Counted from the first letter of the stretch, positions 19,796 to 52,441 are shown. The stretch: DNA of 64,000 bases from an uncultured Lachnospiraceae bacterium (GCA_947384285.1 CANDGI010000015.1:1-64000); one strand, 5' to 3'. Made by a program: numbers and translations. Notes: a model not told the origin generated them from the letters alone.

Positions 19796-19943
19796 AAATA
19801 GTGTAAGTCAAGATGCAGCACATACATATGGCTGTATCACAGTTTCGGATAGTTAACCTAGGGATTATCTGGAACATGGCAAGACTGTTTTTACAGAATA
19901 TAAATACCGAATGCATTCAGCAGAGGTTGCTATATTAATAATC

Positions 19944-29358: not shown

Positions 29359-30036
29359 ATGAAAAATATAGCGGTTATCCCTGCAAGAAGCGGCTCAAAG
29401 GGATTAAAGGATAAAAATATAAAGGAATTAAAGGGGAAACCTTTGATGGCATATTCCGTTGAAGCAGCGATAAAGTCTGGCATTTATGATTGCATCCACG
29501 TGTCTACAGACAGTGAGAATTACGCACAAATAGCAAGGGGATATGGAGCTGAGGTTCCTTTTTTGAGGAGCAGTGAATTATCTTCTGACACTGCTGGAAC
29601 TTGGGATGCAATGAGGTTTGTCCTGCATGAATATGAGAAGCTGGGGAAAAATTTTGATATGCTTACTGTGCTGCAGCCTACCTCCCCTTTGAGGAGTGCA
29701 AAGGATATTCAAAAAGCCTATGAATTGTTTGTAGAGAAACAGGCTGAAACAGTAATCGCAGTATGTGAGATGGAACATTCGCCTTTGTGGAGCAATACGT
29801 TGCCGGAGGATGGATGTTTGGAAGGATTTATCAGGGAAAAGGGAGATGTGCCGAGACAGGGGCTTCCCCAGTATTATCGTGTGAACGGAGCGATTTACAT
29901 GGCAAACGTTAAACTTATCCTTGAGAAAGGCAATCTTTATGGGAAAAATGGTTATGCATATATTATGGATAAAAAACATTCGATGGATATTGATGACGAG
30001 CTGGATTTTGTGATGGCAGAGTTTTTGATGGGATAA
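29359..30036 (+). CDS. neuA: CMP-nonulosonic acid synthetase (NeuA/LegF)
   Basis: Protein of 225 residues that activates the nine-carbon acid with CTP. The N-terminal IPARSGSKGLKDKNIKEL is the CTP-binding loop, followed by STDSENYAQIA, LQPTSPLRSAKDI and the C-terminal MDIDDELDF metal-binding motif. Length and motifs are complete. Together with neuB and neuC this gives the donor that Maf uses on flagellin. Confidence 0.93.
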   Translation: MKNIAVIPARSGSKGLKDKNIKELKGKPLMAYSVEAAIKSGIYDCIHVSTDSENYAQIARGYGAEVPFLRSSELSSDTAGTWDAMRFVLHEYEKLGKNFDMLTVLQPTSPLRSAKDIQKAYELFVEKQAETVIAVCEMEHSPLWSNTLPEDGCLEGFIREKGDVPRQGLPQYYRVNGAIYMANVKLILEKGNLYGKNGYAYIMDKKHSMDIDDELDFVMAEFLMG

Positions 30037-30060: not shown

Positions 30061-30248
30061 TTGCTGCGTAAGGTCGGGTGTCTGATACTGTAGATTGCAG
30101 ATGCGCTTAAGAAAGCTATTCGAGAGGGAGATGACAGCCAGGGTATTTTTATGGCAGGGCAGTGCGCAGGCATGATAGAGAAGAACTTTCTGTTGAAGCA
30201 ATCTTGAAGCAAACTTGGGAACAGGCAAAGGAATATTTGACATTATAA
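30061..30248 (+). pseudogene. FabK/nitronate monooxygenase C-terminal remnant
   Basis: The stretch from 30094 reads IADALKKAIREGDDSQGIF then MAGQCAGMIEK; after a one-base shift it continues ELSVEAILKQTWEQAKEYL to a stop at 30246. This is the C-terminal end of the FabK/nitronate monooxygenase family of flavin oxidoreductases. A stop at 30091 and the shift make it non-functional. A lost enoyl-ACP reductase next to a FabZ-like gene is in keeping with the acyl module. Confidence 0.55.
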
Positions 30249-30276
30249 AGATTATTTTTGAAAGGTTAGGTAGGTC

Positions 30277-30741
30277 ATGGAAGAAAAGTTAAGTTTTGAT
30301 CTTATGGGTATCCAGTCATGCCAGAGGAACCGGTACCCTCTTTTATTTGTTGATAGAATAACAGAGGCTATTCCAGGAAAAAGTGCGAAAGGGATTAAAA
30401 ATTTTACGTATAATGAGTGGTATTTCCCAGCTCATTTTGATGATGATCCCAATGTCCCTGGGTTCGTTTTGGTGGAGTGCTTGGTTCAGACATTTTTAAT
30501 GTCGTTTTTATGTATAGAGGAATATCGGGGCATGGAAACCAGCTTTGTAAGCATCGATAATGTGAAATTTAAGAGAAAAATAGTGCCAGGGGATCGTCTT
30601 TTCATGGATGCCACATTGGATTCTTTCCGGCGAGGTGTGGCAAAAGGTCATGTGGATGGCTTTGTGGATGGTGAATTTACGTGTTGCGCAGATTTTGTAG
30701 TAGCCATTACAGAAGTGTTGGATCGATATAGGCCCAAGTAA
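30277..30741 (+). CDS. FabZ-like hydroxyacyl-ACP dehydratase
   Basis: Hot-dog fold protein of 154 residues. The motif FPAHFDDDPNVPGFVLVECLVQ corresponds to FxGHFPxxPxxPGVLxxEAxAQ of FabZ, with catalytic His53 and Glu67 kept. The RYPLLFVDRI segment is also typical. The usual Gly before His is Ala and the region after it is acidic, so it is a diverged, probably specialised copy and not the housekeeping FabZ. It begins the acyl module of the island and is followed at 43 bases by an acyl ligase. Confidence 0.82.
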   Translation: MEEKLSFDLMGIQSCQRNRYPLLFVDRITEAIPGKSAKGIKNFTYNEWYFPAHFDDDPNVPGFVLVECLVQTFLMSFLCIEEYRGMETSFVSIDNVKFKRKIVPGDRLFMDATLDSFRRGVAKGHVDGFVDGEFTCCADFVVAITEVLDRYRPK

Positions 30742-30784
30742 ATAAAGTAAAAGGAATTGGAATGGAATTTTAAGGAGCAGTATC

Positions 30785-32194
30785 ATGTGGAATTTTGAAA
30801 AATTCGGGAGCAGAAATGCTGTAATTGATGAATATGGGACAGTTCTTACTTATGAGCAGTTAGAGCAGGAAGGAAATCGGATTGCAAATGCCGTTGCAGG
30901 AAGGTGTCTGGTATTTTCACTTTGTGAAAATACCGTTGGTTCCGTATTAGGCTATGCAGCTTTTATTAATCATAAGATTGTGCCTGTTTTGTTGAACAGT
31001 CATTTGGAGCGGGAACTTCTTGAGAATTTGCTGTCCGCCTACTGCCCGTCTTATTTGTGGGTGCCAAAGGCACAGGAAAATGATTTTGAAGACACCAAAA
31101 TTATATATGAGTCTTATGGATATGTCCTGTTAAAGACAAATTATGACAAAACTTATCCTCTTTATGAAGAATTGTGTCTGCTGCTGACTACGTCGGGTTC
31201 TACCGGAAGTCCCAAGTTTGTAAGGCAGAGTTATACAAATGTAAAGGTAAATGCGGAGTCTATTGTGGAATATCTTAAGCTGGATGAGACAGAGAGACCC
31301 ATTACCACCCTTCCTATGAACTATACGTATGGGCTTTCGATTATCAATAGCCATTTTCTGGTGGGCGCAGCATTGCTTGTGACAGACAAGGGGCTGATGC
31401 AGAAGGATTTCTGGAGCTTTTTTAAGGAGCAAAAGGCCACATCCTTCGGCGGGGTGCCTTATACCTATGAGATGCTTGACAGGCTGCGTTTTTGGCGCAT
31501 GGATTTGCCGTCTTTGAGGACTATGACACAGGCGGGTGGGAAAATTATCCCAGAGCTCCATAAAAAATTTGCAGAGTATGCGGCGGAAAACGGAAAAAAT
31601 TTTGTTGTGATGTATGGGCAATGTGAAGCGACAGCACGTATGGGATACCTGCCAGCAGAGAAGGCCATAGAAAAGTGCGGTTCCATGGGGATTGCAATTC
31701 CAGGTGGCAAGTTCCAATTAGCTGATGTAAATGGTGAAGATATTACAGAGCCATTTGTTACAGGGGAACTTGTCTATCAGGGGGAGAATGTTACCCTTGG
31801 GTATGCGGAATGCGGGGAAGATTTGAGCAAGGCAGATGAGCGTAAAGGAATCCTTCAGACTGGCGATATGGCACAGTTTGATAAAGATGGTTATTATTAT
31901 ATCGTAGGCCGCAAAAAGAGGTTTTTAAAAATTTATGGAAACAGAGTCAACCTTGATGAAATTGACAGGATGATAAAAGGAAAGTTCGGTGACATGGAAT
32001 GTGCCAGCGCTGGTGTGGATGACCACATGTATCTTTTTGTGACAGATGGCGCCAAGGCAGATGAAGTGAAGGAATTCGTTGTATTTAAAACAAAGTTAAA
32101 TCCAGCTGCATTTCAAACCGTGGTGGTTGATGAGATTCCAAAGAATGATGCCGGAAAAACATTATATAAGGAATTAGCGAAATATTATGAATGA
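30785..32194 (+). CDS. AMP-forming acyl ligase
   Basis: ANL-superfamily ligase of 469 residues that activates a carboxylic acid as the adenylate and moves it to CoA or an acyl carrier protein. The A3 loop LLLTTSGSTGSPK, A5 MYGQCEATARMGYLP, A7 LQTGDMAQFDKDGYYYIVGRKKRFLKIYGNRVNLDEID (A8) and the catalytic Lys in NDAGKTLYKEL are present. Overlaps luxE-like gene by 8 bases. A truncated relative of this gene lies at 42447-42749, near a second acyl-related gene set. Confidence 0.88.
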   Translation: MWNFEKFGSRNAVIDEYGTVLTYEQLEQEGNRIANAVAGRCLVFSLCENTVGSVLGYAAFINHKIVPVLLNSHLERELLENLLSAYCPSYLWVPKAQENDFEDTKIIYESYGYVLLKTNYDKTYPLYEELCLLLTTSGSTGSPKFVRQSYTNVKVNAESIVEYLKLDETERPITTLPMNYTYGLSIINSHFLVGAALLVTDKGLMQKDFWSFFKEQKATSFGGVPYTYEMLDRLRFWRMDLPSLRTMTQAGGKIIPELHKKFAEYAAENGKNFVVMYGQCEATARMGYLPAEKAIEKCGSMGIAIPGGKFQLADVNGEDITEPFVTGELVYQGENVTLGYAECGEDLSKADERKGILQTGDMAQFDKDGYYYIVGRKKRFLKIYGNRVNLDEIDRMIKGKFGDMECASAGVDDHMYLFVTDGAKADEVKEFVVFKTKLNPAAFQTVVVDEIPKNDAGKTLYKELAKYYE

Positions 32195-33290
32195 AAGAAT
32201 GAATTTTGAAGAAATTTTGCAGATATCCCCTTATTCTTTGGATAAGGAAAAAAAGGGAGAAATGCTTACAAGACGTCTGCTGGAACTGACTGAGCACCAC
32301 AGGGAAAACTGTCCAGAATATGCACGTATTCTGGACAGTATTTCGTATGACAGGAAAAATGTAAGAAGCTATCAAGACTTGCCATTTCTGCCAGTTCGTC
32401 TTTTTAAAGAGTTGTCTTTAAGAAGCATTCCTCAGGATGAAATAGTAAAAACTATGACTTCCTCAGGAACATCTGGGCAGGCGGTTTCTAAAATATATTT
32501 GGATAAGGCAACATCTTCCAATCAGCAGAAAACCATGGTGAAGATTGTATCTGATTTTACAGGTTCCGGCCGTATGCCGATGATTATCGTAGACTGCCCT
32601 TCTGTTGTGAAAAACAGAACCATGTTTTCTGCAAGAGGAGCAGGTATTCTTGGTTTTTCCATTTTTGGAGCAAAAAAAATTTATGCATTGGATGATAATA
32701 TGAAGCTTGATGTGGAGGGGCTGAAAGAATTCCTGGAAAAATATAGAGGGCAGAGGATTCTTCTGTTTGGATTCACATTTATGGTATGGCAGCATTTTTA
32801 CAAAGAATTGTGCAAGTTAGAAAGAGAAGGTGTAAAACTTGACCTTTCCTCTGGCATACTCATCCATGGCGGAGGTTGGAAAAAGCTTGTAAGCGAGGCA
32901 GTAAGCCCTGAAGAGTTTCACACAAAGTTAAAGGCGGTATGTGGATTGAACAGTATCCATGACTATTATGGAATGGTAGAGCAGACGGGATGTATCTATA
33001 TGCAGTGTGAGTGCGGACACCTTCATGCAAGTATATTTTCAGATGTTATTATGAGAAGGCCAGAGGATTTTTCGGAATGCGAAATTGGAGAAAAAGGAAT
33101 TATCCAGGTCGTGTCAACGATTCCAGAGTCTTATCCTGGCCACTCCCTTATCACAGAAGATGAAGGTGTTTTACTAGGGGAAGATGACTGTCCCTGTGGA
33201 AGGAAAGGAAAATATTTCAAAATAATCGGCCGGTTGAAACATGCGGAGATCAGGGGGTGCAGCGATACTTATGCAGCAAGATTCAAATAA
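32187..33290 (+). CDS. luxE: LuxE-like acyl-protein synthetase
   Basis: Protein of 367 residues of the LuxE acyl-protein synthetase family, a relative of the ANL ligases. In luminous bacteria LuxE adenylates a fatty acid and passes it to LuxC for reduction to aldehyde. Seen here: MTSSGTSGQAVSKIYLD (nucleotide loop), FGFTFMVWQHF, ILIHGGGWKK, and the DYYGMVEQTG motif. A cysteine cluster (CECGHLH and CPCGRKGKYF) in the C-terminal part may bind metal and is also common in LuxE of anaerobes. There is no luxAB here, so the product is not for light emission. Confidence 0.88.
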   Translation: MNERMNFEEILQISPYSLDKEKKGEMLTRRLLELTEHHRENCPEYARILDSISYDRKNVRSYQDLPFLPVRLFKELSLRSIPQDEIVKTMTSSGTSGQAVSKIYLDKATSSNQQKTMVKIVSDFTGSGRMPMIIVDCPSVVKNRTMFSARGAGILGFSIFGAKKIYALDDNMKLDVEGLKEFLEKYRGQRILLFGFTFMVWQHFYKELCKLEREGVKLDLSSGILIHGGGWKKLVSEAVSPEEFHTKLKAVCGLNSIHDYYGMVEQTGCIYMQCECGHLHASIFSDVIMRRPEDFSECEIGEKGIIQVVSTIPESYPGHSLITEDEGVLLGEDDCPCGRKGKYFKIIGRLKHAEIRGCSDTYAARFK

Positions 33291-34500
33291 TAAAAAGGAA
33301 TGGATTGTTTTGGATAACGTTACTTATTTGATAGGGAGCGCAGAAATTGCCAGAAATATGGCATCTGTTCCAGCCAAAGAGCCTTTTGACGAAGAGACCA
33401 TAGATTTTTTGAATGATGTGTCCAGGAGGATTATGGGCATGAAAGAGGCAAAAGCATATCCAGATATTATTACGTTAGGATTTTGGATGCGGAAATCCTC
33501 TGTACTGAGCCTGAAAAAACGTTTTGAGAAAAATGATGGGAATTTGCATATGGGAAGAGGCCTGGCATTCCATGTTGCGCCGTCCAATGTGCCGGTTAAT
33601 TATGCCTATTCCCTTGTCACGGGGCTTTTGACGGGAAATGCCAATATTGTAAGGGTGCCGTCGAAGGATTTCCCGCAGGTTGGAATCATTAATAAAGCAA
33701 TCCTGGAATCCCTGCTAAAATTTAACCATGTAAAAGATTATATTTGCCTGGTTCGTTATGAAAGGAATCGGGAGATTAATGATTGCTTGTCTGCTATGGC
33801 GGACATGAGAATTATCTGGGGCGGGGATCAAACGATTGCAGAACTGCGGGAATCCCCATTGGCGCCGAGGGCGGGGGAGATTACCTTTGCGGACAGGTAT
33901 TCCCTGGCTGTGATAGACAGTGAGGTGTACTTAAAGCTGGAGGATAAAAAAAAGGCGGCAGAAGATTTTTATAATGACACATACCTTACTGACCAAAATG
34001 CCTGTACCAGCCCCAGGATTGTCGTCTGGCTTGGAAATCAGAAGGAAGAGGCGAAAAGGGAATTTTGGAGCATCCTTCATGGAGTTGTGAAGGAAAAATA
34101 CGAATTTCAGCCGATTATGGGGATTAACAAGTTAACCAGCAGTTATTTACTGGCAGCCGCGCAGCCTGGCGTAAAAATAGAAGGCCAGGAGGATAATTAT
34201 ATTGTGAGGGTAAAAATCCCCCAAATTACAGACAGTCTTATGGAGTGGAAAGATAATTCAGGATATTTTTTTGAATATGACTGTAATGATATTTTGGAAT
34301 TGAAAAAGCTGTGTGATGATACACATTGCCAGACTATTGGATTTATGGGGGAACGGGAGAGGATCTTTCCTTTATTAAAGTCTGGGATTAAGGGAGTTGA
34401 CCGGATTGTCCCAATCGGAAAGACCATGGACTTTGACCTGATTTGGGATGGATATGATCTGTCAGAACGATTGACAAGGACAATCGCAATCAATGTGTAA
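33271..34500 (+). CDS. luxC: LuxC-like acyl reductase
   Basis: NAD(P)H-dependent acyl-protein reductase of about 409 residues, aldehyde-dehydrogenase-like. Motifs: FHVAPSNVPVNYAYSLVTGLLTGNANIVRVPSKDFP (cofactor site), WGGDQTI, and catalytic Cys245 in LTDQNACTSPR. It should reduce an acyl group received from LuxE to an aldehyde. The start at 33271 overlaps luxE by 20 bases and follows a G-rich site at some distance; an ATG at 33241 is possible but lacks a ribosome site. Together with LuxE and the ligase it makes a complete acid-to-aldehyde route inside a flagellin glycan island. Confidence 0.88.
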   Translation: MQQDSNNKKEWIVLDNVTYLIGSAEIARNMASVPAKEPFDEETIDFLNDVSRRIMGMKEAKAYPDIITLGFWMRKSSVLSLKKRFEKNDGNLHMGRGLAFHVAPSNVPVNYAYSLVTGLLTGNANIVRVPSKDFPQVGIINKAILESLLKFNHVKDYICLVRYERNREINDCLSAMADMRIIWGGDQTIAELRESPLAPRAGEITFADRYSLAVIDSEVYLKLEDKKKAAEDFYNDTYLTDQNACTSPRIVVWLGNQKEEAKREFWSILHGVVKEKYEFQPIMGINKLTSSYLLAAAQPGVKIEGQEDNYIVRVKIPQITDSLMEWKDNSGYFFEYDCNDILELKKLCDDTHCQTIGFMGERERIFPLLKSGIKGVDRIVPIGKTMDFDLIWDGYDLSERLTRTIAINV

Positions 34501-34555
34501 AATTTTGGGTTCAGCTTATCTGGGTGAAAGATTGGAGCAGAACAGGAGAGGTATT

Positions 34556-35515
34556 ATGCGGACGGGATATGTGGTAGGAAATAGAAAAGTTGCGATTGTC
34601 GGGGCTGGATTTGTGGGTTCCTCCATCGCTTATGCCTTGGCTTTAAGGGACATTGCAAGAGAAATTGTTTTAATTGATATAGCGAAAGAAAAAACAGAGG
34701 GGGAAGCCTGGGATATCCGGCATGGGCTGCCAAGCATGGGCACAGCAGATTTATACGCAGGGGATTACCCTGATTGTGCGGATTGTGATTTGATTATTAT
34801 TACTGCTGGGAGGAATCGTAGAAATGGAGAAACCCGTTTAGATATGACTGGGGAAAATGTGAAAATTTTAAAATCTGTCATAAAGTCTATCCAAAAGTAT
34901 TATACCCGTGGAGTTCTTCTGATTATTTCAAATCCGGTTGATATACTTACCTATAAAGCAGATGAGTGGATGGGATTGCCAAATGGGATGGTGTTTGGTT
35001 CTGGCTGTCTGCTGGATTCGTCTCGTTTTGTTCGGACAGTGGCCGACTATATTGGATTAAGCACTGGGGTTGTCAATGGGTATTTAGTGGGGGAGCATGG
35101 GGACAGCCAGGTTCCTGTCTGGAGCCGGGTGACCATAGGGGGAATCCCCATTCATGAGTACTGCAATGAGGTATCGCTGCCCTGGGATGAGCAGGTTCGG
35201 GAGGAAATAGCCTTAAAAACCCGGAAAATGGGAGCAGAAATTATCCGTTCCAAAGGGAAGACCCATTATGGGATTGCTACATGCGTATGCCATCTGGCAG
35301 ACGCTGTTTTGAACCAGCGCCCAACCATTGTGTCGGTTAGTTCACAGCTTTTAGGGGAACATGGCGTGCGTGGGGTTGCATTGTCTGTTCCGTCTGTGGT
35401 TGGGCCATCAGGGGTGCAGCAGAGGATACGGGAACGGTGGGCGCCGGAGGAGTACAGGGGATTCTTTGATGCAGTGGAAAAGGTTAGGAATATATTAGAG
35501 TGTTTGGACGAATAA
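34556..35515 (+). CDS. Lactate/malate dehydrogenase family, Arg at the specificity site
   Basis: 2-hydroxyacid dehydrogenase of 319 residues. NAD loop AIVGAGFVGSSIAYA near the N-terminus, SNPVDILTY, active His in GEHGDSQVPVW, and GETRLD with the catalytic Arg. Overall it aligns with L-lactate dehydrogenase, but the residue equal to Gln102 of Bacillus LDH is Arg (AGRNRRNGETR against AGANQKPGETR). That exchange is the classic switch to malate/oxaloacetate specificity, so the substrate may be a dicarboxylate or another unusual keto acid. AGGAGAGG precedes the ATG at 34556. The context suggests a role in the island, not in fermentation. Confidence 0.85.
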   Translation: MRTGYVVGNRKVAIVGAGFVGSSIAYALALRDIAREIVLIDIAKEKTEGEAWDIRHGLPSMGTADLYAGDYPDCADCDLIIITAGRNRRNGETRLDMTGENVKILKSVIKSIQKYYTRGVLLIISNPVDILTYKADEWMGLPNGMVFGSGCLLDSSRFVRTVADYIGLSTGVVNGYLVGEHGDSQVPVWSRVTIGGIPIHEYCNEVSLPWDEQVREEIALKTRKMGAEIIRSKGKTHYGIATCVCHLADAVLNQRPTIVSVSSQLLGEHGVRGVALSVPSVVGPSGVQQRIRERWAPEEYRGFFDAVEKVRNILECLDE

Positions 35516-35529
35516 AGGAGATTAATCGT

Positions 35530-36504
35530 ATGGGAAAATTGAGAATTGCCATGTACCATTATGTGAGAGACTTAAAATACAGCAGATATCCAGAGATAAA
35601 AGGTTTGGATTATAAGTTGTTTAAAGAGCAAATTGATTTTTTTTTAAATCATTTTAAAATTGTCACTATGGAGGAAGTGATAGAGGCATGTAATTCAGAG
35701 AACAGCAAGCTTCCAGAAAATGCACTGTTATTGACGTTTGATGACGGATATATAGATCATTTTACAACGGTTTTTCCAGTGTTAAAAGAAAACAAAATAC
35801 AAGGTTCTTTTTTTATATCGGGAAAAACATTTTCAGAAAATGTGCTGTTGGATGTAAATAAAATACATTTTATTCTGGCGAGTGCAGATATCCGGGAAAT
35901 AGTAAAATCTATGCTTGATAGGTTGGATTTTTACAGAAAAGAATTTTCGGAAAGTGGCATTTTGTCCAATGAAGAATTATTTGCAAAGTATGCCATTGCA
36001 AGTAGATTTGACAGGAAGGAAACAGTATTTGTAAAAAATATTTTACAGAATGTTTTGCCGGAAAATTTGAGAAGGATTATTGCAAGTGAATTATTTGAAA
36101 AATATGTACAACTGCCGGAAAACGTATTTTCTAAAGAACTGTATATGAGCAGGGATCAGATTAAATGTATGAAGGATGCAGGAATGTTTATCGGAATTCA
36201 TGGGTATGACCATTATTGGTTAGGAAAATTACAGGAAGATGAGATGAAAGCAGATATTGATAAAGCATTGGATATCATGTCTGATTTTATTGAAAAAGAC
36301 AGTTGGGTAATGAATTACCCATATGGTTCTTATAATGAGGATGTTGTAAAATATGTAAAGGAACGAGGGTGTGTATGTGGTTTGACCACAGAGGTTAGAA
36401 TTGCAGAGATTGGTAAAGACAACCGGTATTTGCTTCCAAGATTAGACTGTAATGATTTTCCGCCCAAAAGTAATAACTATTTAAATTTTGAATGTTATTC
36501 ATAA
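35530..36504 (+). CDS. Polysaccharide deacetylase family protein (NodB-like)
   Basis: Protein of 324 residues with the NodB homology pattern: MYHYVRD at the start, LLTFDDGYIDHFTTVFPVL with the metal-binding Asp pair, GSFFISGK, and GIHGYDHYWLG with the second metal motif (usually HTxxH, here HGYDH). No signal peptide or anchor is seen, so it acts in the cytoplasm, consistent with removing an N-acetyl group from a sugar precursor during glycan assembly. AAAGGAG lies before the ATG at 35530. From here the DNA becomes more AT-rich. Confidence 0.82.
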   Translation: MGKLRIAMYHYVRDLKYSRYPEIKGLDYKLFKEQIDFFLNHFKIVTMEEVIEACNSENSKLPENALLLTFDDGYIDHFTTVFPVLKENKIQGSFFISGKTFSENVLLDVNKIHFILASADIREIVKSMLDRLDFYRKEFSESGILSNEELFAKYAIASRFDRKETVFVKNILQNVLPENLRRIIASELFEKYVQLPENVFSKELYMSRDQIKCMKDAGMFIGIHGYDHYWLGKLQEDEMKADIDKALDIMSDFIEKDSWVMNYPYGSYNEDVVKYVKERGCVCGLTTEVRIAEIGKDNRYLLPRLDCNDFPPKSNNYLNFECYS

Positions 36505-36545
36505 ATCTATCATTATTAAAATTTCAAAAAATAGGAGAAATATAT

Positions 36546-37589
36546 ATGAATATATATGATAAATATTTTGATTTCAGAATGGCAACTATAGATGATATAG
36601 ATGAGATTATGTTATTTCTTAAAAAAGTATGGTCAGAAAATCACATATTGGCCAATGACCGGAAACTTTTCCAATGGCAGTATGGAAATGAGCAATTTGG
36701 AGATAAAAATGCAATAAATGTAGTGCTTATGTTGGATAAGAACAAAAAAATAGCTGGCATGAATGGTTTTATACCTTATGCGGCATTACCAGAAGAACGT
36801 TATGTATCTAGTGCTATTACGGTGGTGAGACCGGATTTAGAAATACCACAATGCGGAATAGAGTTGATAAAAAGATTTAAAGAGATAGTACCCGCGAAGG
36901 CATATTATAGTTCTGGCACAAACCCACGTACTATGATTCCTATTGGAAAACGGATATTTCATTATGAGACAGGTATTATGCAGCAGTATTATATGATAAA
37001 TAATAAGTTTACTGATTTTAAGGTGGCACGTATAAACCACCATGTTTCATCAGAATACTGTCATACCGAAATTTTATTAAGGCCGTTACAAAATATGTCA
37101 GAAGCAGAGAAATGTTTTAAATTTGAGAGGAAAGAAGAAGGACAGGGTTATAAGTCAAAAGAATTTCTTGATAAAAGATATTTTAAACATCCAGTTTATC
37201 AATATAAAATATATGGAGTTCAAGGTGCAAAGGAACAGGCATATTTAGGTATATTAGTTGGGCGGGAGATAGAAATTCATAAACATAAAATACTGAGACT
37301 TGTAGATTATATTGGCAATCTAACATATATTGGAAGCCTTGGAACAGCATTACATCAGCTTATGGATAAAAATGATTATGAATATATCGACATGATGGTG
37401 GGGACACTGCCACGGGAATTAATGAGCCAGGCAGGATTTTCCTTGCGTGAACTGGAAGACACTAATGTGATACCGACTTATTTTGAACCTTTTGTGCAGG
37501 AAAATGTGAATATCTGGTATCAGAAGAGTGATCCAGATATTGTGATCTTTAAAGCAGACGGTGATCAGGATAGACCCAATAGACGGTAA
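36546..37589 (+). CDS. GNAT-like acyltransferase
   Basis: Protein of 347 residues. The start (FDFRMATIDDIDEIMLFLKKVW) and the segment NVVLMLDKNKKIAGMNGFIPY are typical of the GNAT fold; the C-terminal half looks like a second, weaker GNAT-type domain. Such enzymes in nonulosonic acid clusters add acetyl or longer acyl groups to amino sugars. Start chosen at 36546 because TAGGAGAAA lies upstream. Acceptor unknown; given the acyl module nearby, an acyl-ACP or acyl-CoA donor is possible. Confidence 0.65.
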   Translation: MNIYDKYFDFRMATIDDIDEIMLFLKKVWSENHILANDRKLFQWQYGNEQFGDKNAINVVLMLDKNKKIAGMNGFIPYAALPEERYVSSAITVVRPDLEIPQCGIELIKRFKEIVPAKAYYSSGTNPRTMIPIGKRIFHYETGIMQQYYMINNKFTDFKVARINHHVSSEYCHTEILLRPLQNMSEAEKCFKFERKEEGQGYKSKEFLDKRYFKHPVYQYKIYGVQGAKEQAYLGILVGREIEIHKHKILRLVDYIGNLTYIGSLGTALHQLMDKNDYEYIDMMVGTLPRELMSQAGFSLRELEDTNVIPTYFEPFVQENVNIWYQKSDPDIVIFKADGDQDRPNRR

Positions 37590-37864
37590 TAGAAATCTTT
37601 TGAGGTTATGGGAGATATTAGTAAGCAGAGAACTTGACTTGGAGGAGATAAAAAAGTACATCAAAATCAGATATCCGGCACGACAAACGCATGAGTAAAT
37701 AAAATGTGAACAAAGTCTTCCATAATCCGTTGTAATTAGGAAAAGAGTCGAAAAATTGACAAAGTAACTTCTGCCTAGAAATTTGCCGAAATTAATTCAG
37801 CTTTGCTCATGGAGAGGCCTGAATTGAGTTTGGTAATTGAGAAAAATGGATTTGGGATAAAAAA

Positions 37865-37978
37865 CTAAAGATATTCTCTCAGAATACCGATATAATAAAA
37901 AGATGATAGGATGCCATTTTAAGACGCATGGAGGTGCTGTGAAGAAAAACAGGGATAGCATGCAAGCTATCCTTTTTT
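37865..37978 (+). ncRNA. Candidate small RNA, copy B
   Basis: CTAAA (37865-37869), 17 bases, CCGATAT (37887-37893) resembles a sigma-28 promoter. GATAGGAT (37905-37912) and GACGCATGGAGG (37923-37934) follow, then a clean terminator: 7-bp stem (37953-37959 with 37966-37972), 6-base loop and six T. Same order and spacing as the locus at 18936-19049. It may be a short regulatory RNA of the flagellar regulon or the leftover leader of a lost flagellin gene. Confidence 0.45.
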
Positions 37979-37987
37979 GTTTTATAG

Positions 37988-38032
37988 GATGATGTTTGGG
38001 TCAAACAGCCTCGGCCGGCACTTTGAAAACTT
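37988..38032 (+). repeat. 45-bp dispersed repeat, copy 1
   Basis: About 38 of 45 bases match 42745-42789. Shared core GGGTCAAA-AGCC...CGGCACTTT. Probably the end of a lost mobile element; in this copy a transposase remnant follows 70 bases later. Confidence 0.7.
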
Positions 38033-38101
38033 CACACAAATATAGTTAAAATGTTTGCTTTCTGAATATAATGGAATTATCAGAAAGGCGGTGCAGCAAT
38101 A

Positions 38102-38296
38102 GTATTTCGTACAAACAGTTCACAGCAATTGTCCCTTACAGATATTACAAATTCATTAACTTCCCGGGAACAGAAAGCACTGGAAGATTCCTGGGCTAAA
38201 ATTTTTGCGGAAGATATTTCTCTTCTATTAAGAGGAAGAAAGATTCCGCGTCATTTATTTTGGCCGGGTTCAATCAAGAAATCCCGTTACTGTTAG
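38102..38296 (+). pseudogene. Transposase remnant, IS1182-like N-terminus
   Basis: 64 codons read VFRTNSSQQLSLTDITN and EDSWAKIFAEDI before a stop. The NSxQLSLxD and SWAxxFxxxI spacing is like the N-terminus of IS1182-family transposases. The rest is frameshifted and broken. Confidence 0.45.
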
Positions 38297-38654
38297 GCCA
38301 ATGTCTCGAAATGTAATGGGACAAAACTGGTTCGTCAGCTGAAACATTATTATCGTTAAATGATTCCTTTTCAAAATATCAGATGGCAGGAATAGAACAT
38401 TACACGAATCAAAAAAGATATTGAGCGGGAAGCCATTAAGATTATAGTTATCGATAAATGAAATGAAGAACTATTTTGATATGTTTGACAATACGGCTAT
38501 TGCAGAATATTATATAGACCGGAAAAATTTGTACATCAAATTCATATAGGCGTTGATGATATATTCCCATTGCCTGCAAATAGTAAATATGTACAAGGCC
38601 AGAAAGGATTATCAGCAGAGATTATCGCAGAGAAAATAGGAAAGGAATATTGTA

Positions 38655-40460
38655 ATGATTAGGGTAGCTGATTATATTGTAGATAAAATATACAACGAAG
38701 GTGCAAAAGATATATTTATGGTAACGGGGCGAGGGATATTGTTTCTCTCCGATGCAGTTGCTAAACATGTTAAAATGCAGGCTGTTTCTGTTCATCATGA
38801 GCAGGCAGGCGCATATGCGGCAATGGCATATGCGCAATCTAATAATAATATAGGAGCCTGCTTGGTATCTACGGGCTGTGCTGCATGTAATGCAATTACT
38901 GGTGTATTATGTGCCTATCAGGATTCTGTTCCATGTATTTTTATTTCTGGGCAGAATATGCTTTCAGAAACTACTTATTATACTCAAAAATCTATTAGAA
39001 CATATGGTTCCCAAGAAGCAAACATAGTGGCTCTTGTTAAACCGATTACAAAGTATGCTGTAATGCTGACCGATCCTAGCAGGGTTGTATATGAACTGGA
39101 GAAGGCTCTATATATCATGAGAGCCGGCAGGCCGGGACCGGTATGGATTGATGTCCCATTAGATATTCAGAATGCCCGAATAGAAGTTGATAAGTTACAA
39201 CATTATTCTAGACAGGGCGCAATAAAGTTACCTAGCGATATACATTATAGAGAGGCTGTGCCCAGAGATGAAGATATAAGATATATTTTTCATGAATTAT
39301 ATCAAGCGGAGCGTCCGGTATTTTTATTAGGTAATGGAGTAAAAGCATCAGGAGCGACAGAAAATGTCAGGAGATTAATTCAGAAAATTAAAATACCGGT
39401 AGTCTATTCTCCAGCGGCCGCTGATGTATATGGTTCGGCTAATCAATATTCAATTGGATCGGTAGGAAGTATAGGAGGAACAAGGGAAGGAAATTTTGCG
39501 GTGCAGAATGCAGATTTAATAATATCTATTGGATGTGGGTTATCATCGGTTATAACAGGAAACCTGTTTGAAAAATTTGGAAGAGAAGCAAAATTGATTG
39601 TAATTGATATTGATAAGGAGCAGCATACAAAAAACGAACTAAAAATAGATAGGTTGATTTTAGCTGATGCATTAAAAGTAATTGAGGCATTGAATCAAAC
39701 GGATTTTTATAAAAAATATAATGAATGGGTTGAAAAATGTCTGCATTGGAAACAAATTTTCCCGCTTGGGTTAAAAAGGGATGGTGATGTTCCGGATTTG
39801 TATTATTTAGCAGAAATATTGAATCGGCATATGCCTGAGAATGCAGCGGTTGTTTGTGATGCCGGATATGAGGAATTAATAATTCCATCGTCTGTACATT
39901 ACAATCTAACACAAAAATGTATTCATCCTTGTGCACAGGGAGCTATGGGATATGCCCTTCCGGCTGCAATGGGCATCTGGATGGATACAAAAGCCCCTGT
40001 TATAGCTATAATAGGAGACGGCTCCATAATGATGAACTTACAAGAATTACAGACTATAGTGAGTTATCATATGCCAATAAAAATATTAGTTATAAATAAT
40101 AATGCTTATGCTGTCATTAGAAAACGGCAGCAAGACTTATTCAGGACAAGAACGATAGGGACGGACTGCACGAATGGGGTAACGGTTCCTGATTTTGAGC
40201 GGGTTGCAAATTGTTTTAATGTGAGGTATGAACATATTTCAACAATTGATGAGTTGAATAGTAAACTTACAGACATATTATTTAGCGATGAATCAATTTT
40301 GTGTGAGATAAATTGTGTTACAGATCAACGGTATTTGCATATGTCAGTTGCCAGGGGAATAAATAATAAAATTGTCCATCGACCGTTAGAAGATTTATCA
40401 CCTTTTTTAGATAGGGAAACATTTTTAAATGAAATGATAGTAAAACCTATAGATCAATAG
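38655..40460 (+). CDS. ThDP-dependent enzyme, acetolactate synthase-like
   Basis: Protein of 601 residues with the three domains of the acetolactate synthase/pyruvate oxidase family. Catalytic Glu49 (HHEQAGAYAA), central Rossmann-like domain (about 200-340), and the ThDP/metal motif GDGS (454-457) to NN (481-482) are complete. Such enzymes join a two-carbon unit from pyruvate to an aldehyde or keto acid. In glycan clusters, relatives such as YerE attach an acetyl branch to a sugar. Here it sits before an acyl carrier protein and a second NeuB, so a glycan role is more likely than branched-chain amino acid synthesis. AGGAAAGGA precedes the ATG. Confidence 0.85.
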   Translation: MIRVADYIVDKIYNEGAKDIFMVTGRGILFLSDAVAKHVKMQAVSVHHEQAGAYAAMAYAQSNNNIGACLVSTGCAACNAITGVLCAYQDSVPCIFISGQNMLSETTYYTQKSIRTYGSQEANIVALVKPITKYAVMLTDPSRVVYELEKALYIMRAGRPGPVWIDVPLDIQNARIEVDKLQHYSRQGAIKLPSDIHYREAVPRDEDIRYIFHELYQAERPVFLLGNGVKASGATENVRRLIQKIKIPVVYSPAAADVYGSANQYSIGSVGSIGGTREGNFAVQNADLIISIGCGLSSVITGNLFEKFGREAKLIVIDIDKEQHTKNELKIDRLILADALKVIEALNQTDFYKKYNEWVEKCLHWKQIFPLGLKRDGDVPDLYYLAEILNRHMPENAAVVCDAGYEELIIPSSVHYNLTQKCIHPCAQGAMGYALPAAMGIWMDTKAPVIAIIGDGSIMMNLQELQTIVSYHMPIKILVINNNAYAVIRKRQQDLFRTRTIGTDCTNGVTVPDFERVANCFNVRYEHISTIDELNSKLTDILFSDESILCEINCVTDQRYLHMSVARGINNKIVHRPLEDLSPFLDRETFLNEMIVKPIDQ

Positions 40461-40468
40461 TTAGAGTA

Positions 40469-41117
40469 GTCTCGGAAACTTGATGAAAATATTGAAAAAA
40501 TTCAAGTTATACAAGAGTGTACGAGATGCAATTAGGAGATAGATATTATAGGAATTGAGGTCGCTGTCCCAGCCCCAAGAGGCATCTGGGTCCGGATAAT
40601 GCCTCGGAAGCGAAGCATATTTCTGGTGTGAAAGAGGATGGTCAGGGCGAGGCGGGATATGTCCATTGGGGTTGAAATGTGTATGGACAGATGAGAAGAA
40701 AAAAGAGGATAAAAGAGCGCAGGATCAGAGGCTGGTTTGAAGCAGGTCTTCCGGTATTGGAATAAAAAGGCGCAAGAAAGCGAATGACAGCATCCGTGTC
40801 GAAAAGCCGAAGTTTTCCCGAGGGGAAGCAAGTTTCGATTGGAGCCGGATTCTTTCAGAAGAGTCAAAAGTAGTTTTTGCGTTAGCGGGAAAGCAGTGGT
40901 ATTTCCGATTGATTTGCCAGTACTTAATCATCGTGCGATACCTCCTTGTAAGCAAGTTGAGGTGGAATACTTCTTAATCATCAAATATGCCGCACAATTC
41001 AAAAGAAATGTCAATAGTTTTTTGAAAATAAATTCAAATTGTCACTCCCGATAGGGAGGATAAGAAAATAAAAGAAATGAAAAAATGGTAATTTGGGCTT
41101 TGTCGAGTTTCCGAGAC
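40469..41117. mobile_element. Non-coding element of about 650 bp with terminal inverted repeats
   Basis: The ends GTCTCGGAAACTTGA (40469-40483) and its reverse complement (41103-41117) match at 14 of 15 bases. They bound DNA with no gene, and the element lies between the ThDP enzyme and the acyl carrier protein. No clear target duplication is visible. It fits a MITE or an internally deleted insertion sequence, and it separates two genes that otherwise would be one operon. Confidence 0.5.
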
Positions 41118-41146
41118 CGCCTAATTAAAGAAAGTGAGGAGAAAGA

Positions 41147-41386
41147 ATGACAAATTTACAAAAGTACAATCAGGCATTTTGTGAATCATTTGAACTAAAA
41201 GAGGAGCAGCTGGAGGAATTGACCTATCAATCAATAGCAGAATGGGATTCCGTTGGGCATATGAGTTTGATAGCGGCGATCGAAGACGCATTTGATATTA
41301 TGATGGATACGGATGATATCATAGAGTTGAATTCCTATGAAAAAGGAAAGGAGATACTCACAGAAAATTACGATATTGTTTTTTAG
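41147..41386 (+). CDS. Acyl carrier protein
   Basis: Small acidic protein of 79 residues. Ser35 in WDSVGHMSLIAAIED corresponds to the phosphopantetheine serine of the DSxxxxxL motif. It is not the housekeeping AcpP (which has LGADSLD), so it is a dedicated carrier. It precedes the second NeuB by 23 bases. It is the natural partner for the FabZ-like dehydratase, the acyl ligase and LuxE/LuxC encoded 7-10 kb upstream. AGTGAGGAGA precedes the ATG. Confidence 0.88.
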   Translation: MTNLQKYNQAFCESFELKEEQLEELTYQSIAEWDSVGHMSLIAAIEDAFDIMMDTDDIIELNSYEKGKEILTENYDIVF

Positions 41387-41409
41387 TTTATTTGAGGGGT
41401 TGAGACATT

Positions 41410-42441
41410 ATGGCAAAATGTGTTTTAAAAGATGGTACTATCGTTCAAGATTATGGACAACCATATTTTGTGGCAGAAGTGAATACAAGTCATTATGGAA
41501 AGATAGAAATTGCAAAGCAATTAATAGATGCTGCTGTTGAAAGTGGCTGTGATTGTGTAAAATTCCAATCATGGTCGGCATCGACCTTATATTCACAAAC
41601 ATATTATGACCAGAATCCATTTGCAAAGCGGATGGTATCAAGGTTTGCATTTGATGCGGCGGTCTTAAAAGAACTTTCACAGTATTGTTTGAAAGGAGGA
41701 ATTGCTTTTTCATCTACCCCTTATTCCAGACAGGAGGTAGACTTTCTTGTTGATGAATGTAATGCACCGTTTATAAAAATTGCATCAATGGATCTGGATA
41801 ATGATAAATTTCTTGAATACATTGCAAATAAGCATATACCGATTGTATTATCAACTGGAATGAGTACGATAGAGGAAATTGATCATGCTATTAATTTATT
41901 GGCTGACCTACACGTGGATAATTTATGTATCCTGCACTGTATTTCTGTATATCCGCCAAAGGGAAAGGATATTAGATTGAAAAATATAGAAGGCTTACGA
42001 AAAAAATATCCAGAGTATCCGATTGGGTTTTCAGATCATTCATTGGGCGATGAGATGTCTATAGCGGCTACGGCTTTGGGGGCATGCCTGATTGAAAAAC
42101 ATTTGACGATGGATAGAAGTAAGATAGGTATGGATAATCAAATGGCAATTGAACCGATGGAAATGAGGGAATTAATCAGGCGTTGTAAATTAGTCAACGA
42201 AGCTTTAGGAAGTGGAAGCCGTGTTTTGTCTGATGATGAAATTGTTCAAAAGAAAAAGATGCGGCGTAGTATAGTTGCGTTGTGTGATATAAAAAAAGGA
42301 ATGGTTATACAAGAGGATATGTTATGTGCAAAGCGTCCAGCGAGTGGTCTCCCATTATGTATGTGGAACAATGTAGTTGGTAAAAAGGCGCGGAGGGACA
42401 TTATTGCGGATACTGTTATTTATCAAGAAGACATTGAATAG
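41410..42441 (+). CDS. Second NeuB-family synthase, diverged
   Basis: Protein of 343 residues with the NeuB barrel and SAF domain: FVAEVNTSHYGKIEIAKQLIDAA, VKFQSWSAS, FSSTPYSRQEV, LSTGMSTIEEI, LHCISVYPPKGKDI, GFSDHSLGDE, EKHLTMDRS. The usual GVNHNG loop reads NTSHYG and the YPTP motif reads YPPKG, so the acceptor is probably different from that of the NeuB at 24310. It should condense a PEP unit with an aldose or modified sugar. A second NulO is plausible, since strains that carry two NeuB genes often make two acids. Confidence 0.85.
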   Translation: MAKCVLKDGTIVQDYGQPYFVAEVNTSHYGKIEIAKQLIDAAVESGCDCVKFQSWSASTLYSQTYYDQNPFAKRMVSRFAFDAAVLKELSQYCLKGGIAFSSTPYSRQEVDFLVDECNAPFIKIASMDLDNDKFLEYIANKHIPIVLSTGMSTIEEIDHAINLLADLHVDNLCILHCISVYPPKGKDIRLKNIEGLRKKYPEYPIGFSDHSLGDEMSIAATALGACLIEKHLTMDRSKIGMDNQMAIEPMEMRELIRRCKLVNEALGSGSRVLSDDEIVQKKKMRRSIVALCDIKKGMVIQEDMLCAKRPASGLPLCMWNNVVGKKARRDIIADTVIYQEDIE

Positions 42442-42446
42442 CAACG

Positions 42447-42749
42447 TTGATTGTATCGTCGTTGGAGTCTTCGCAGCTGGAACGTATATGTACAGATGCT
42501 GGATACGTGCTGTTGAAAAATATTTATGCGGGGAAAATGGAAATGTATCTGGAACTAAGTGACACGGAGCGCCCGGTGACGACATTGCCGATGAACAATA
42601 TGTATGGCTGGTCTATCATAAACAGTCATTTTGTGGTCGGTGTGTCGATCCTCCTGACAGATCATGGACTGATGCAGAAGGAATTCTGGAGATTTATGAA
42701 AGGGCAGTCTGCGACCCCATTTGGCGCCGGGATAAACTTATTAAGATGA
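42447..42749 (+). pseudogene. Truncated copy of the acyl ligase
   Basis: Reads DAGYVLLKNIYAGK then LSDTERPVTTLPMNNMYGW and SIINSHFVVGVSILLTDHGL, matching GYVLLKTNYDK, LDETERPITTLPMNYTYGL and SIINSHFLVGAALLVTDKGL of the ligase at 30785-32194. The nucleotide loop between the first two blocks is deleted, and the match ends at about 42735. It shows that the acyl set was once duplicated. Confidence 0.8.
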
Positions 42750-42789: not shown

Positions 42790-42835
42790 TTACTATGATA
42801 CAGGAGGAAATGGTATTGAAGTCCTGCAGCTTTCA

Positions 42836-42882
42836 AGGAAATGGGCAGAGCGATTTCACAAAAATCGCTCTGCCCATTTCCT
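42836..42882. repeat. Long perfect hairpin, 21-bp stem
   Basis: Arms 42836-42856 and 42862-42882 are exact complements with a CACAA loop; pairing extends a further five bases after one mismatch. No T-run follows. The remaining gap DNA (42790-43089) shows only a 48-codon frame from 42810 that the hairpin crosses, which I do not consider a gene. Confidence 0.75.
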
Positions 42883-43089
42883 CGAAGGTTATCAGAATTT
42901 CCATGCAAACTATTGGGAACGTTGCAGCTTTCTTTGGTCCTGAATTACTTTTTTGATTTTCAAATCGCTTTCATCCAGGCATAGTGCCTGGATTTTCCAA
43001 TCGGGTCATTGCGCGATTCGCTCCAGTAACGTAGATTTGTGAGTTTCTTGTTTGCGGCATAAAGTTGGTTTTTCCAATGTTTGCATTTT

Positions 43090-44805: not shown

Positions 44806-45391
44806 ATGTTTTCACAGGGCAGCCGGATTACTGATTATAGTATTTTTCAAGCAGGGGGGCTAAAAAATGCAGACCAGGTTGTTTTTGCCAGGAAGAATTT
44901 AATCATTGGCAAGAATGGATCTGGAAAGACCCGTTTTTTAAAAGCTTTAGAACAAGAAAAAAAGACACAGAATAAAAAGGAGATTGCCGTTGGCGGAGGG
45001 TTTATCAGAATTTTCCCCTGGGGAATTGATGCTGTTTTATTTATGTGTCTTCCTGATGGCTATTAAACGGAAATCTAAGAATAGCGTGGCCTTAATAATT
45101 GATGAGCCTGAATTGCACCTTCATCCTCGTGCATTGGTGAAGATGATAAAGACATTGACGGAATTTGAATCTGTTTCTGAGTTTTGGATTGCCTCCCATT
45201 CTTTGTTTTTAGTACCGTTATTTTCATTTGAAGAAATTGTTTTCATGCATCACAACAAGGTTATCAGCCGAAATAGCCATATATATAAGGAGCTATATGA
45301 TTCATTGGTAGGATTGGAAAATATAGATGTTGGATTATGGTGCAGGAAAATGCAGGATTTGGGAGTGCATGCAGCTGTTGCCAGATTCTGA
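44806..45391 (+). pseudogene. Broken AAA_21/ABC-type ATPase
   Basis: Frame 1 (44806-45066) has Walker A IIGKNGSGKT. Near 45000 the reading shifts to another frame with the signature LSEFSPGELMLFYLCVFL, Walker B ALIIDEPELHLHP and IASHSL. Normally more than 150 residues separate Walker A from the signature; here only about 35 do, so an internal deletion and a frameshift have destroyed the gene. Such overcoming-lysogeny-like ATPases are frequent in defence loci, and the dCTP deaminase is next door. The ribosome site AAGGGGG and promoter are intact. Confidence 0.65.
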
Positions 45392-45733: not shown

Positions 45734-45915
45734 ACTATAGGGAAAGAAAGTATGATTTCTTGCAAAAAGGCAATTTGTTTTCCAGGGAAAAACCATTCTG
45801 ATTGGGACAGATTCAGGCGGTTTATAAAGATGTTTTGAAAAGAAGCCGATATACCTATATAGGCAAAATTACAGCTATCAAGGACGGTAGCGCACGAAAC
45901 AGGAGGTTCCCCAGG

Positions 45916-52339: not shown

Positions 52340-52386
52340 AGGCGTTGTCATTCCAGATTACTTATAGTATATCATGGGTGAATAGG

Positions 52387-52421
52387 AAAAGAGCAGAAAT
52401 AAGATTTATTTCTGCTCTTTT
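52387..52421. terminator. Bidirectional terminator between flagellin 2 and FliD-like gene
   Basis: 16-bp perfect stem (52387-52402 with 52406-52421), 3-base loop and T-runs on both strands, between two converging genes. Confidence 0.85.
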
Positions 52422-52441
52422 TTGAAATTTGAAAAGGATAC

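Follow-up and report, generated by a model that had tools for sequence, protein, structure and literature searches.

What would a bacterium do with acyl-reducing enzymes of the LuxE and LuxC families inside a flagellin-glycan island? The question is raised by a stretch of 64,000 nucleotides (the window; bases 1-64000 of contig C15, CANDGI010000015.1) from the genome of an uncultured Lachnospiraceae bacterium (GCA_947384285.1; 3.23 Mb, 83% complete), in which genes for an acyl ligase, LuxE, LuxC and an acyl carrier protein (ACP) stand together with a second NeuB gene and the gene of a thiamine diphosphate (ThDP) enzyme. The answer that we tentatively propose, with somewhat less than even confidence, is that the window encodes an acyl-ACP-to-aldehyde cassette and a pair of enzymes that form carbon-carbon (C-C) bonds, which together would make an unusual side chain of the flagellin glycan. 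The window proteins were compared by profile search with Pfam and NCBIfam at the family cut-offs, and the genes in question, all on the plus strand, are as follows.

30277-30741 (+): FabZ-like dehydratase (Pfam FabA, 72 bits, cut-off 23; 89% identical to the FabZ-like protein of locus L168)
30785-32194 (+): acyl ligase (LIG) forming adenosine monophosphate (AMP) (Pfam AMP-binding, 128.8 bits, cut-off 29.9)
32187-33290 (+): LuxE-type acyl-protein synthetase (Pfam LuxE, PF04443, 179 bits, cut-off 24.9)
33241-34500 (+): LuxC-type acyl-protein reductase (Pfam LuxC, 115.4 bits, cut-off 21)
34493-35515 (+): 2-hydroxyacid dehydrogenase like lactate and malate dehydrogenases (LDH and MDH; L-LDH, 314.4 bits, cut-off 303.55)
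35500-36504 (+): NodB-fold polysaccharide deacetylase (Pfam Polysacc_deac_1, 86.4 bits)
36492-37589, probable start 36546 (+): conserved protein, family not recognised (no Pfam or NCBIfam match)
37590-38654 (+): decayed spacer of 1.07 kb without an intact gene (no long open reading frame, ORF; single copy in the genome)
38655-40460 (+): YerE-like ThDP carboligase, acetolactate-synthase-like (best profile match 8rph, JanthE, E 9e-153)
40461-41146 (+): decayed spacer of 0.69 kb between the ThDP and ACP genes (single copy in the genome)
41147-41386 (+): dedicated ACP (DSVGHM motif; Pfam PP-binding, 17.5 bits, under the cut-off of 20.8)
41410-42441 (+): NeuB2, a distinct NeuB subfamily tied to the cassette (NeuB 244.8 bits, SAF 38.1 bits)
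42447-42749 (+): remnant of a second acyl ligase copy (67% identity over 61 residues to the ligase at 30785)

This agrees with most of what the original prediction had assigned by inspection: the FabZ-like, ligase, LuxE, LuxC, LDH-like, ThDP, ACP and second NeuB genes are all supported by the profile search. What had been taken for a FabK-like remnant at 42447-42749 is the acyl ligase fragment, and FabK/NMO family matches occur in this genome only on contigs C9, C16, C22, C24 and C26, with none on C15. The deacetylase and the protein at 36492-37589, both of which accompany the module elsewhere, had been overlooked, as had the two decayed spacers; an origin of the latter from recent copies of insertion elements is unsupported, both being single copy. 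The absence of luxAB is borne out in that no luciferase-family (PF00296) match is found in the 83% complete genome, with the control positive in 10 of 14 genomes, and light emission is ruled out accordingly. The LuxE family profile hits 7xc6_E, the LuxE chain of a solved LuxC-LuxE complex, at E 4e-28, the window LuxC matches 7xc6_A, the reductase of that entry, at E 9e-5, and C358 of LuxE is invariant in all 19 aligned sequences. The LuxE and LuxC families are thus common to the window and the LuxCDE fatty acid reductase of luminous bacteria, but the window adds a dedicated ACP and a ligase, has neither luciferase nor thioesterase, and lies far below the NCBIfam lux equivalog cut-offs (63.6 versus 550 bits for LuxE, 40.4 versus 750 for LuxC). 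In the LDH-like protein the specificity loop reads TAGRNR or TAGRGR in the window and nine of 12 homologues, with an arginine that we take to be a malate-dehydrogenase-type residue.

The core recurs widely. A LuxE alignment searched against one genome per species matched at least 594 stretches, at least 590 of them confirmed, and the locus counts that follow refer to the best 80. These come from 69 Bacillota (38 Lachnospiraceae), three Pseudomonadota, two Spirochaetota, two Synergistota, one Melainabacteria and one Thermodesulfobacteriota (six named phyla in all), with two unplaced. LuxC or a LuxE-LuxC fusion is present in 76 loci, a ligase at 45% identity or more in 72, an ACP in 62 (at least 45% identical, with the DSVGHM motif kept in 58), a short-chain dehydrogenase/reductase (SDR) in 59, and a thioesterase in 23; both halves of a split transketolase are present in 36, FabZ in 20, NeuB2 in 15, the ThDP enzyme in 12, LDH in 12 (47-80% identical) and a metallo-hydrolase in five. 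Because our simple ORF picker sometimes keeps a longer antisense ORF, which hid LuxE in L121 and LuxC in L113, these counts are lower bounds. Nine loci (L113, L118, L122, L130, L140, L144, L162, L163 and L168) hold FabZ, ThDP, NeuB2, ACP, ligase and LuxE together; LuxC is separate in seven of them, fused to LuxE in L118 and uncalled in L113, where NeuB2 is split into two ORFs. The NeuB2 (16/16), ThDP (12/12), FabZ (21/21) and LDH (12/12) genes are all on the same strand as LuxE, and the usual order is FabZ-ThDP-NeuB2-ACP-ligase-LuxE-LuxC, to which some loci add a thioesterase or hydrolase gene ahead of LuxE and an LDH gene at the rear. The gene order in the window departs from this, and since the same kinds of gene stand in that order elsewhere, the window reads as a rearranged and partly scrambled copy of the recurrent cassette. 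LuxE and LuxC are fused in eight of the 80 loci (L107, L108, L118, L124, L128, L137, L142 and L155), with both halves matched.

Fusions are also seen in L031, L032 and L054, and the fused ORFs, of 774-859 residues, come from several lineages. Six loci (L043, L127, L129, L134, L153 and L156) have two different LuxE-LuxC pairs, one by the ligase and the other by NeuB2 or transketolase, an arrangement that would suit a need for two reductions.

A similar picture is obtained within the family. A search of 299 family genomes with PF04443 gave some match in 120, mostly short, and a strong one (E below 1e-30) in 35, and 35 stretches of 3.8-20 kb were fetched from the 34 strong-match genomes besides that of the window. 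LuxE is at least 49% identical to the window protein in 20 genomes including the window's own (in one, half of LuxE), and ACP, ligase and LuxC surround most of these loci. In contrast, 14 control loci with a distant LuxE (25-30% identity, one recognised by Pfam only) have no ACP, transketolase, NeuB2, ThDP, FabZ or LDH match, and one of them has a ligase match, at 25%; L031 and L032, with LuxE at 33-36%, were excluded from both sets. The closest architecture is that of L043 (genome G213), with LuxC, LuxE, thioesterase, ligase, ACP, a second LuxC-LuxE pair, NeuB2 (53%), SDR and FabZ, together with NeuD-like and FkbM-like genes; a flagellin-like gene is nearby, 55% identical to the window flagellin over 0.3 of its length, and the same contig has two more of these farther along. 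The family-sample and species-scan loci overlap (L107 is L034, with the same fusion) and their counts are not summed. In a LuxE tree, four of the five rows nearest the window LuxE are named Lachnospiraceae records, which points to a probable origin of the window in that family.

The second question is what the NeuB2 and ThDP enzymes do beside this core. NeuB2 is 35% identical to the first NeuB of the island (24310-25320) and shares 49-57% identity with 15 homologues that stand in LuxE loci. Across 398 phylum genomes a NeuB2 model scores the window's own gene, which is part of the model, at 577 bits, versus 338 for the next NeuB, and at 45% identity or more NeuB2 occurs in two of the 299 family genomes, the window's and G213, both with LuxE. 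A plasmid search with NeuB2 gave 102 records, all below 60% identity, and one with the ThDP enzyme gave no record at E 1e-80. NeuB2 falls under the nonulosonate equivalog cut-offs (NnaB 295.3 versus 399.65, PseI 238.6 versus 340.25). Its profile alignment to 1xuu keeps two histidines, presumably the metal ligands of 1xuu, and has one loop shorter, which we take to be part of the acceptor site there. NeuB enzymes join phosphoenolpyruvate (PEP) to aldehydes and so give 2-oxo-4-hydroxy acids.

Among solved ThDP enzymes the ThDP family profile is nearest to JanthE (8rph; 513 bits), the next being 5ahk at 332 bits. According to the accessible parts of two papers, YerE makes yersiniose, JanthE is a YerE-like enzyme whose natural substrate is not known, and ErwE, of the same group, prefers 4-hydroxy-2-oxo acids as donors (PMC12188165, PMC12247030). 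Since such acids are what a NeuB yields, NeuB2 could supply the donor of the ThDP enzyme. YerE and ErwE act on cytidine diphosphate (CDP)-linked keto-deoxy sugars in the same accounts (PMC12247030, PMC12188165), whereas no CDP-ketosugar genes are found among the window proteins scanned; CDP-glucose genes accompany the cassette ThDP gene in L168 and L134. The window's genome also has, on contig C4 (59039-65512; L185 9039-15512), a short NeuB gene, a fusion like KdsC phosphatase and GmhA, a YerE-like ThDP gene, a CDP-glucose 4,6-dehydratase gene and glucose-1-phosphate cytidylyltransferase genes (one of two above the cut-off). From its gene content this is likely a branched-sugar pathway, in which the NeuB could make the donor for the ThDP enzyme.

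The distribution of NeuB2 across loci bears on its role. Pair tests were made on the 72 of the 80 loci that are at least 12 kb long, the eight shorter ones being excluded. None of 15 NeuB2 loci has the split transketolase, versus 35 of 57 others (Fisher p 1.1e-5); if L153 is counted, which has a transketolase pair, a NeuB2 gene cut by the locus end and two LuxE-LuxC pairs, the figures are 1/16 versus 34/56 (p 1.1e-4). NeuB2 and ThDP go together, with ThDP in nine of 15 NeuB2 loci versus three of 57 others (p 1e-5). On the LuxE tree (71 rows, the window and 70 loci; nine of 68 inner branches starred) the NeuB2 and transketolase labels need at least 13 changes, with the starred branches forcing five to six, and are scattered about like shuffled labels, so that the alternation appears to have many separate origins. 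It is therefore suggestive, on gene content, that NeuB2 and the split transketolase are alternative C-C modules on one aldehyde-making core, and such alternation on a constant core leads to a chemical hypothesis, that the aldehyde is made in order to be extended by a C-C enzyme.

As to which substrates are used, in what order the steps run and how the product is finally attached, we infer the following route. The ligase would load an acid onto the dedicated ACP, and while bound there the acyl group could be dehydrated by the FabZ-like enzyme; the group would then pass from ACP to LuxE and to LuxC, to be reduced to the aldehyde. NeuB2 would join the aldehyde to PEP and give a 4-hydroxy-2-oxo acid, which the YerE-like enzyme may decarboxylate and couple to a carbonyl acceptor, or which, alternatively, the LDH-like enzyme may reduce to a hydroxy acid. 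The finished group would be placed on an island sugar, forming a carbon branch there or else acylating an amino sugar, for instance a legionaminic-type acid, whose amine the deacetylase would free. The most likely role of such a core with a C-C module is to build a side chain that a surface sugar carries, and in the window this sugar is probably part of the flagellin glycan. The aldehyde module of the original prediction thus fits the recurrence, the fusions and the alternation of NeuB2 with transketolase; what did not stand are its flagellin specificity, its status as undescribed, and the FabK remnant.

A wider version of the scheme, which we regard as unlikely though worth stating, is that of a modular chain builder outside fatty-acid and polyketide synthesis, in which a conserved core (ACP, ligase, LuxE and LuxC) works with a swappable C-C module and the cycle can be repeated. 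NeuB2, often with the YerE-like ThDP enzyme, would add PEP-derived carbons, or the split transketolase would add a ketol, and acid products would re-enter the cycle to give polyhydroxylated acyl or branched chains for surface sugars. The flagellin of Treponema denticola reportedly carries a trihydroxyhexanoyl group, and this would fit the logic of such a builder, as would the C9H16O7 group of Shewanella flagellin discussed below. By arithmetic C9H16O7 fits a doubly PEP-extended acyl group or a carboxyl-reduced nonulose, and other structures fit too.

Several observations weigh against the route, and alternatives must be considered with them. The exclusion of transketolase by NeuB2 is not significant on independent supported pairs (six pairs, median p 0.25), and with the weak support in the tree it is suggestive rather than proven. 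ThDP genes are missing from six of the 15 NeuB2 loci, and among the 72 loci there are 20 without a recognised C-C enzyme (NeuB2, ThDP or transketolase), so that neither is needed for the core; in 10 of 36 loci the nearest core gene is over 1.5 kb away from the transketolase. CDP-ketosugar genes are confirmed near only two of the 12 ThDP cassette loci (L134 and L168), the rest having been judged by eye. In the window itself two decayed spacers (1.07 kb and 0.69 kb) split the cassette, the thioesterase and SDR genes that are common in many relatives are absent from it (no SDR family match, such as a 3-oxoacyl-ACP reductase would give, in the ten main ORFs from 30277 to 42441), and no acyltransferase was identified in the module.

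The condition of the window copy could also reflect the joining of two pathways by recombination in this strain, a LuxE/LuxC fragment and a Shewanella-like NeuB-ThDP fragment, with some or all of the genes decaying. The two spacers, the ligase remnant after NeuB2 and the broken defence genes alongside all show turnover, the gene order is unlike the usual one, and a separate NeuB-ThDP locus exists on contig C4. However, the same kinds of gene form compact clusters elsewhere, as in L118 and L163, and the window ORFs resemble those of relatives in length and have all of the motifs inspected, and we consider a chance joining improbable on balance, at about the same level as the chain builder.

The dispensability of the C-C enzymes in those 20 loci also favors a simpler scheme, that the cassette makes a simple acyl- or hydroxyacyl-ACP with which a nonulosonic acid or other amino sugar is N- or O-acylated to a liposugar; LuxE and LuxC would then shuttle or trim the acyl group, and NeuB2 and the ThDP enzyme would belong to a separate sugar pathway. 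The authors of both island surveys described below suggest a liposugar component, as far as the accessible text goes (PMC7874193, PMC4875605), a sugar deacetylase turns up repeatedly where nonulosonate loci include ACP genes, and ketoacyl synthase III genes stand beside the ThDP-NeuB2 genes in L140, L144 and L162. Yet LuxC, of a reductase family and unneeded for plain acylation, persists alone or fused to LuxE in 76 of 80 loci; in 15 of the 16 loci with NeuB2 a core gene is no more than 1.5 kb away from it; and the missing acyltransferase counts against this scheme as well; we think it possible but doubtful, while giving it more credence than a joining of two pathways.

The deacetylase bears on both this scheme and the route that we prefer. 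It occurs with its companion, the protein at 36492-37589, in all seven deacetylase loci (the window, L032, L039, L047, L082, L132 and L168), and the companion is also present without it in L145 and L150. The companion family, of about 345 residues, is found in nonulosonate and LuxE loci. We had considered a GNAT-like acyltransferase for it, but none of nine aligned homologues matches a Pfam acyltransferase family, so that this assignment is withdrawn, an acyltransferase is a guess, and the N-acyl ending of the route is left with little support. L082, fetched for NeuB and not for LuxE, has NeuD, NeuB, NeuC, deacetylase, companion, FkbH, ACP, dehydratase-like, SDR and PseF genes consecutively, and FkbH with the ACP thus places a different acyl-ACP builder in the same slot of a nonulosonate operon. 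The pairing of deacetylase and acyl-ACP builder hints that an ACP-borne group may replace the acetyl group on the sugar. In L163 there are instead WecE, a weak PseH match and a PgfS/ArnC-like transferase, and the acceptor sugar may therefore vary.

Where the cassettes lie is a further point: the cassette is not specific to flagellin, the modification of which the original prediction had inferred. Flagellar genes are present in the fetched flanks of three of 80 loci (L126, with a match over a third of flagellin, L135 and L155) and nonulosonate genes in those of eight, and five family-sample loci (L040, L045, L046, L054 and L062) adjoin fermentation-type genes of the coenzyme A (CoA) kind. Most loci are accordingly outside Maf or nonulosonate loci, and if glycan loci are taken in that sense this is the outcome that the original prediction had named as refuting it, although probably not if surface-polysaccharide loci in general are meant. 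L155, from Roseburia faecis M72, has flagellin, Maf, a ligase and a LuxE-LuxC fusion, with no NeuB2 found. At the five fermentation-side loci the LuxE and ligase cassettes mostly have LuxC and ACP too. HpaB-family proteins are beside the cassette in L040, L046, L054 and L062 (matches under cut-off), and CoA-transferases in L045, L046 and L062 (under cut-off; L045 also by clustering). 4-Hydroxybutyryl-CoA dehydratase is a relative of HpaB, and that label for the proteins in L040, L046, L054 and L062 is partly borne out, the best NCBIfam match being HpaB-1, under cut-off; read by eye, these neighbours suggest 4-hydroxybutyrate metabolism.

These loci lend something to the view that the product is a lipid or soluble metabolite, the LuxC aldehyde, a transketolase ketol and an aminotransferase giving a sphingoid-like amino alcohol, with the island location incidental. 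A Rhizobium anhuiense locus is of this kind, with transketolase halves, ACP, ligase, DegT aminotransferase, LuxE, LuxC, SDR and FabZ, and one annotated glycosyltransferase in 25 kb. On the other hand, 71 of 138 random unassigned same-strand neighbours were scanned, one from each locus, and radical SAM (six), family 2 glycosyltransferase (five) and ketoacyl synthase III (four) lead the Pfam families matched, followed by sugar transferase and family 1 glycosyltransferase (three each). A Deinococcus plasmid locus has ACP, SDR, ligase, LuxE and LuxC amid glycosyltransferase, EpsG and sugar transferase genes, and the window cassette is placed between nonulosonate and flagellin genes. We regard the metabolite view as quite unlikely, and as the least probable of those considered.

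The plasmid search with LuxE gave 14 records, including other rhizobial plasmids, and three of the records were examined. The Rhizobium anhuiense plasmid locus (L199, 5155-18469) is a compact cluster that runs through split transketolase, acyltransferase, ACP, ligase, aminotransferase, LuxE, LuxC and SDR genes, and also holds GMC oxidoreductase, FabZ and methyltransferase genes.

How much of this is new? The original prediction had called the system undescribed, which is not so for its parts. In the accessible text, group II flagellin islands of Aeromonas have ACP, 3-oxoacyl-ACP reductase, AMP synthetase, LuxE and LuxC, and a liposugar is suggested (PMC7874193). As in the window, an ACP, an AMP-dependent synthetase, LuxE and LuxC lie within a nonulosonate flagellin island; unlike the window, the Aeromonas islands have the 3-oxoacyl-ACP reductase and are pseudaminic where the window's is probably legionaminic, and their description, by which they are compared here, names no second NeuB, ThDP enzyme, FabZ or LDH in that text (PMC7874193). 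In enterobacterial flagellin islands, again from the accessible portion of the report, LuxE is present in 73 strains, LuxC in 80 and FabZ in one, together with Acp, a CaiC-type ligase and FabG, and a liposugar is again suggested; they differ from the window in that a NeuB-ThDP pair is not described in that portion, and they belong to another phylum (PMC4875605).

The NeuB-ThDP pair is known from Shewanella oneidensis, where by the accessible account sfmABCDE encodes a NeuB-like protein and a thiamine pyrophosphate (TPP) enzyme, on both of which flagellin modification and motility depend, deletion of sfmA, sfmB or sfmD leaves almost all cells without a filament, flagellin of sfmA-D mutants migrates at the size of the unmodified protein, and the outer flagellin group is C9H16O7 (PMC3765264). 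As described there, the operon is without ligase, LuxE and LuxC, and SfmA is short, at 290 residues (PMC3765264); judged by this description, the short NeuB near the ThDP gene on contig C4 looks the nearer counterpart of SfmA. The sfm operon includes SDR, methyltransferase and ATP-grasp genes; the window island has NeuB2, the ThDP enzyme and FkbM, and neither an SDR nor an ATP-grasp match came up in the proteins scanned there. Another flagellin-glycan island (L195 and L083, G261:C25), where Maf and FliD are matched, carries a YerE-like ThDP gene and a short NeuB; it has no LuxE or LuxC match and is likened to the Shewanella sfm pair.

The LuxE/LuxC core and the NeuB-ThDP pair are thus each known in flagellin islands, and it is the combined cassette and the swap of NeuB2 for transketolase that are new as far as we have found: no description of either was met in open-licence PubMed Central, which most subscription journals lie outside. 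A term search of the text of a 2026 paper on Clostridium flagellin glycosylation found LuxE and acyl carrier protein unmentioned (PMC13317340). Earlier notice of LuxE and LuxC in flagellin islands (2016, 2021) carried, in the parts accessible, only the liposugar remark. The cassette connects those islands with sugar-branching ThDP enzymes as well as with the NeuB-ThDP operon of Shewanella, and with at least 590 LuxE relatives, of which the best 80 include 38 from Lachnospiraceae, a hitherto unrecognised class of surface-sugar side chains may be common in gut bacteria, including on Roseburia flagellins.

The island around the cassette is bounded, with names given by sequence inspection, by a flagellin gene at 19911 and a second flagellin gene with FliD at 51527-53740, and contains a PseD/Maf-like protein, NeuD-, NeuB-, NeuC- and PseF-like genes, FkbM, LegB and glycosyltransferases. 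The members recognised by profile are these.

24310-25320 (+): NeuB1, the nonulosonate synthase that serves the main pathway of the island (NCBIfam NeuB_NnaB, 509 bits, cut-off 399.65)
28189-29355 (+): NeuC-type 2-epimerase (NCBIfam NeuC_NnaA, 431 bits, cut-off 235.9)
29359-30036 (+): PseF/NeuA-like cytidylyltransferase (NCBIfam PseF, 182.9 bits, under the cut-off of 205.7)
45802-46992 (+): nucleotidyltransferase (NCBIfam nucleotidyltransferase matches, under cut-offs), which we take to be of the PtmE kind
47078-48058 (+): LegB, 4,6-dehydratase of legionaminic acid synthesis (NCBIfam LegB, 517 bits, cut-off 475)

It is probably a legionaminic-type flagellin-glycan island. LegB, the NeuC-type and NeuB-type enzymes and a cytidine monophosphate (CMP) transferase, the last under cut-off, represent the legionaminic pathway in the window, and a LegC-like gene is found only outside it, on contig C1 at 57693 (373.6 bits, under the cut-off of 420). 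Behind the cassette, at 43090-44667 on the minus strand, lies a dCTPase-type anti-phage gene (PADLOC dCTPase, E 4e-140) that is split in two ORFs and adjoined by AAA ATPase fragments at 44806-45391, and which looks like a broken defence insert within the glycan island. Directly after the ligase remnant an inverted repeat with 25-nucleotide arms, five nucleotides apart (42832-42886), is possibly a terminator or the end of an element.

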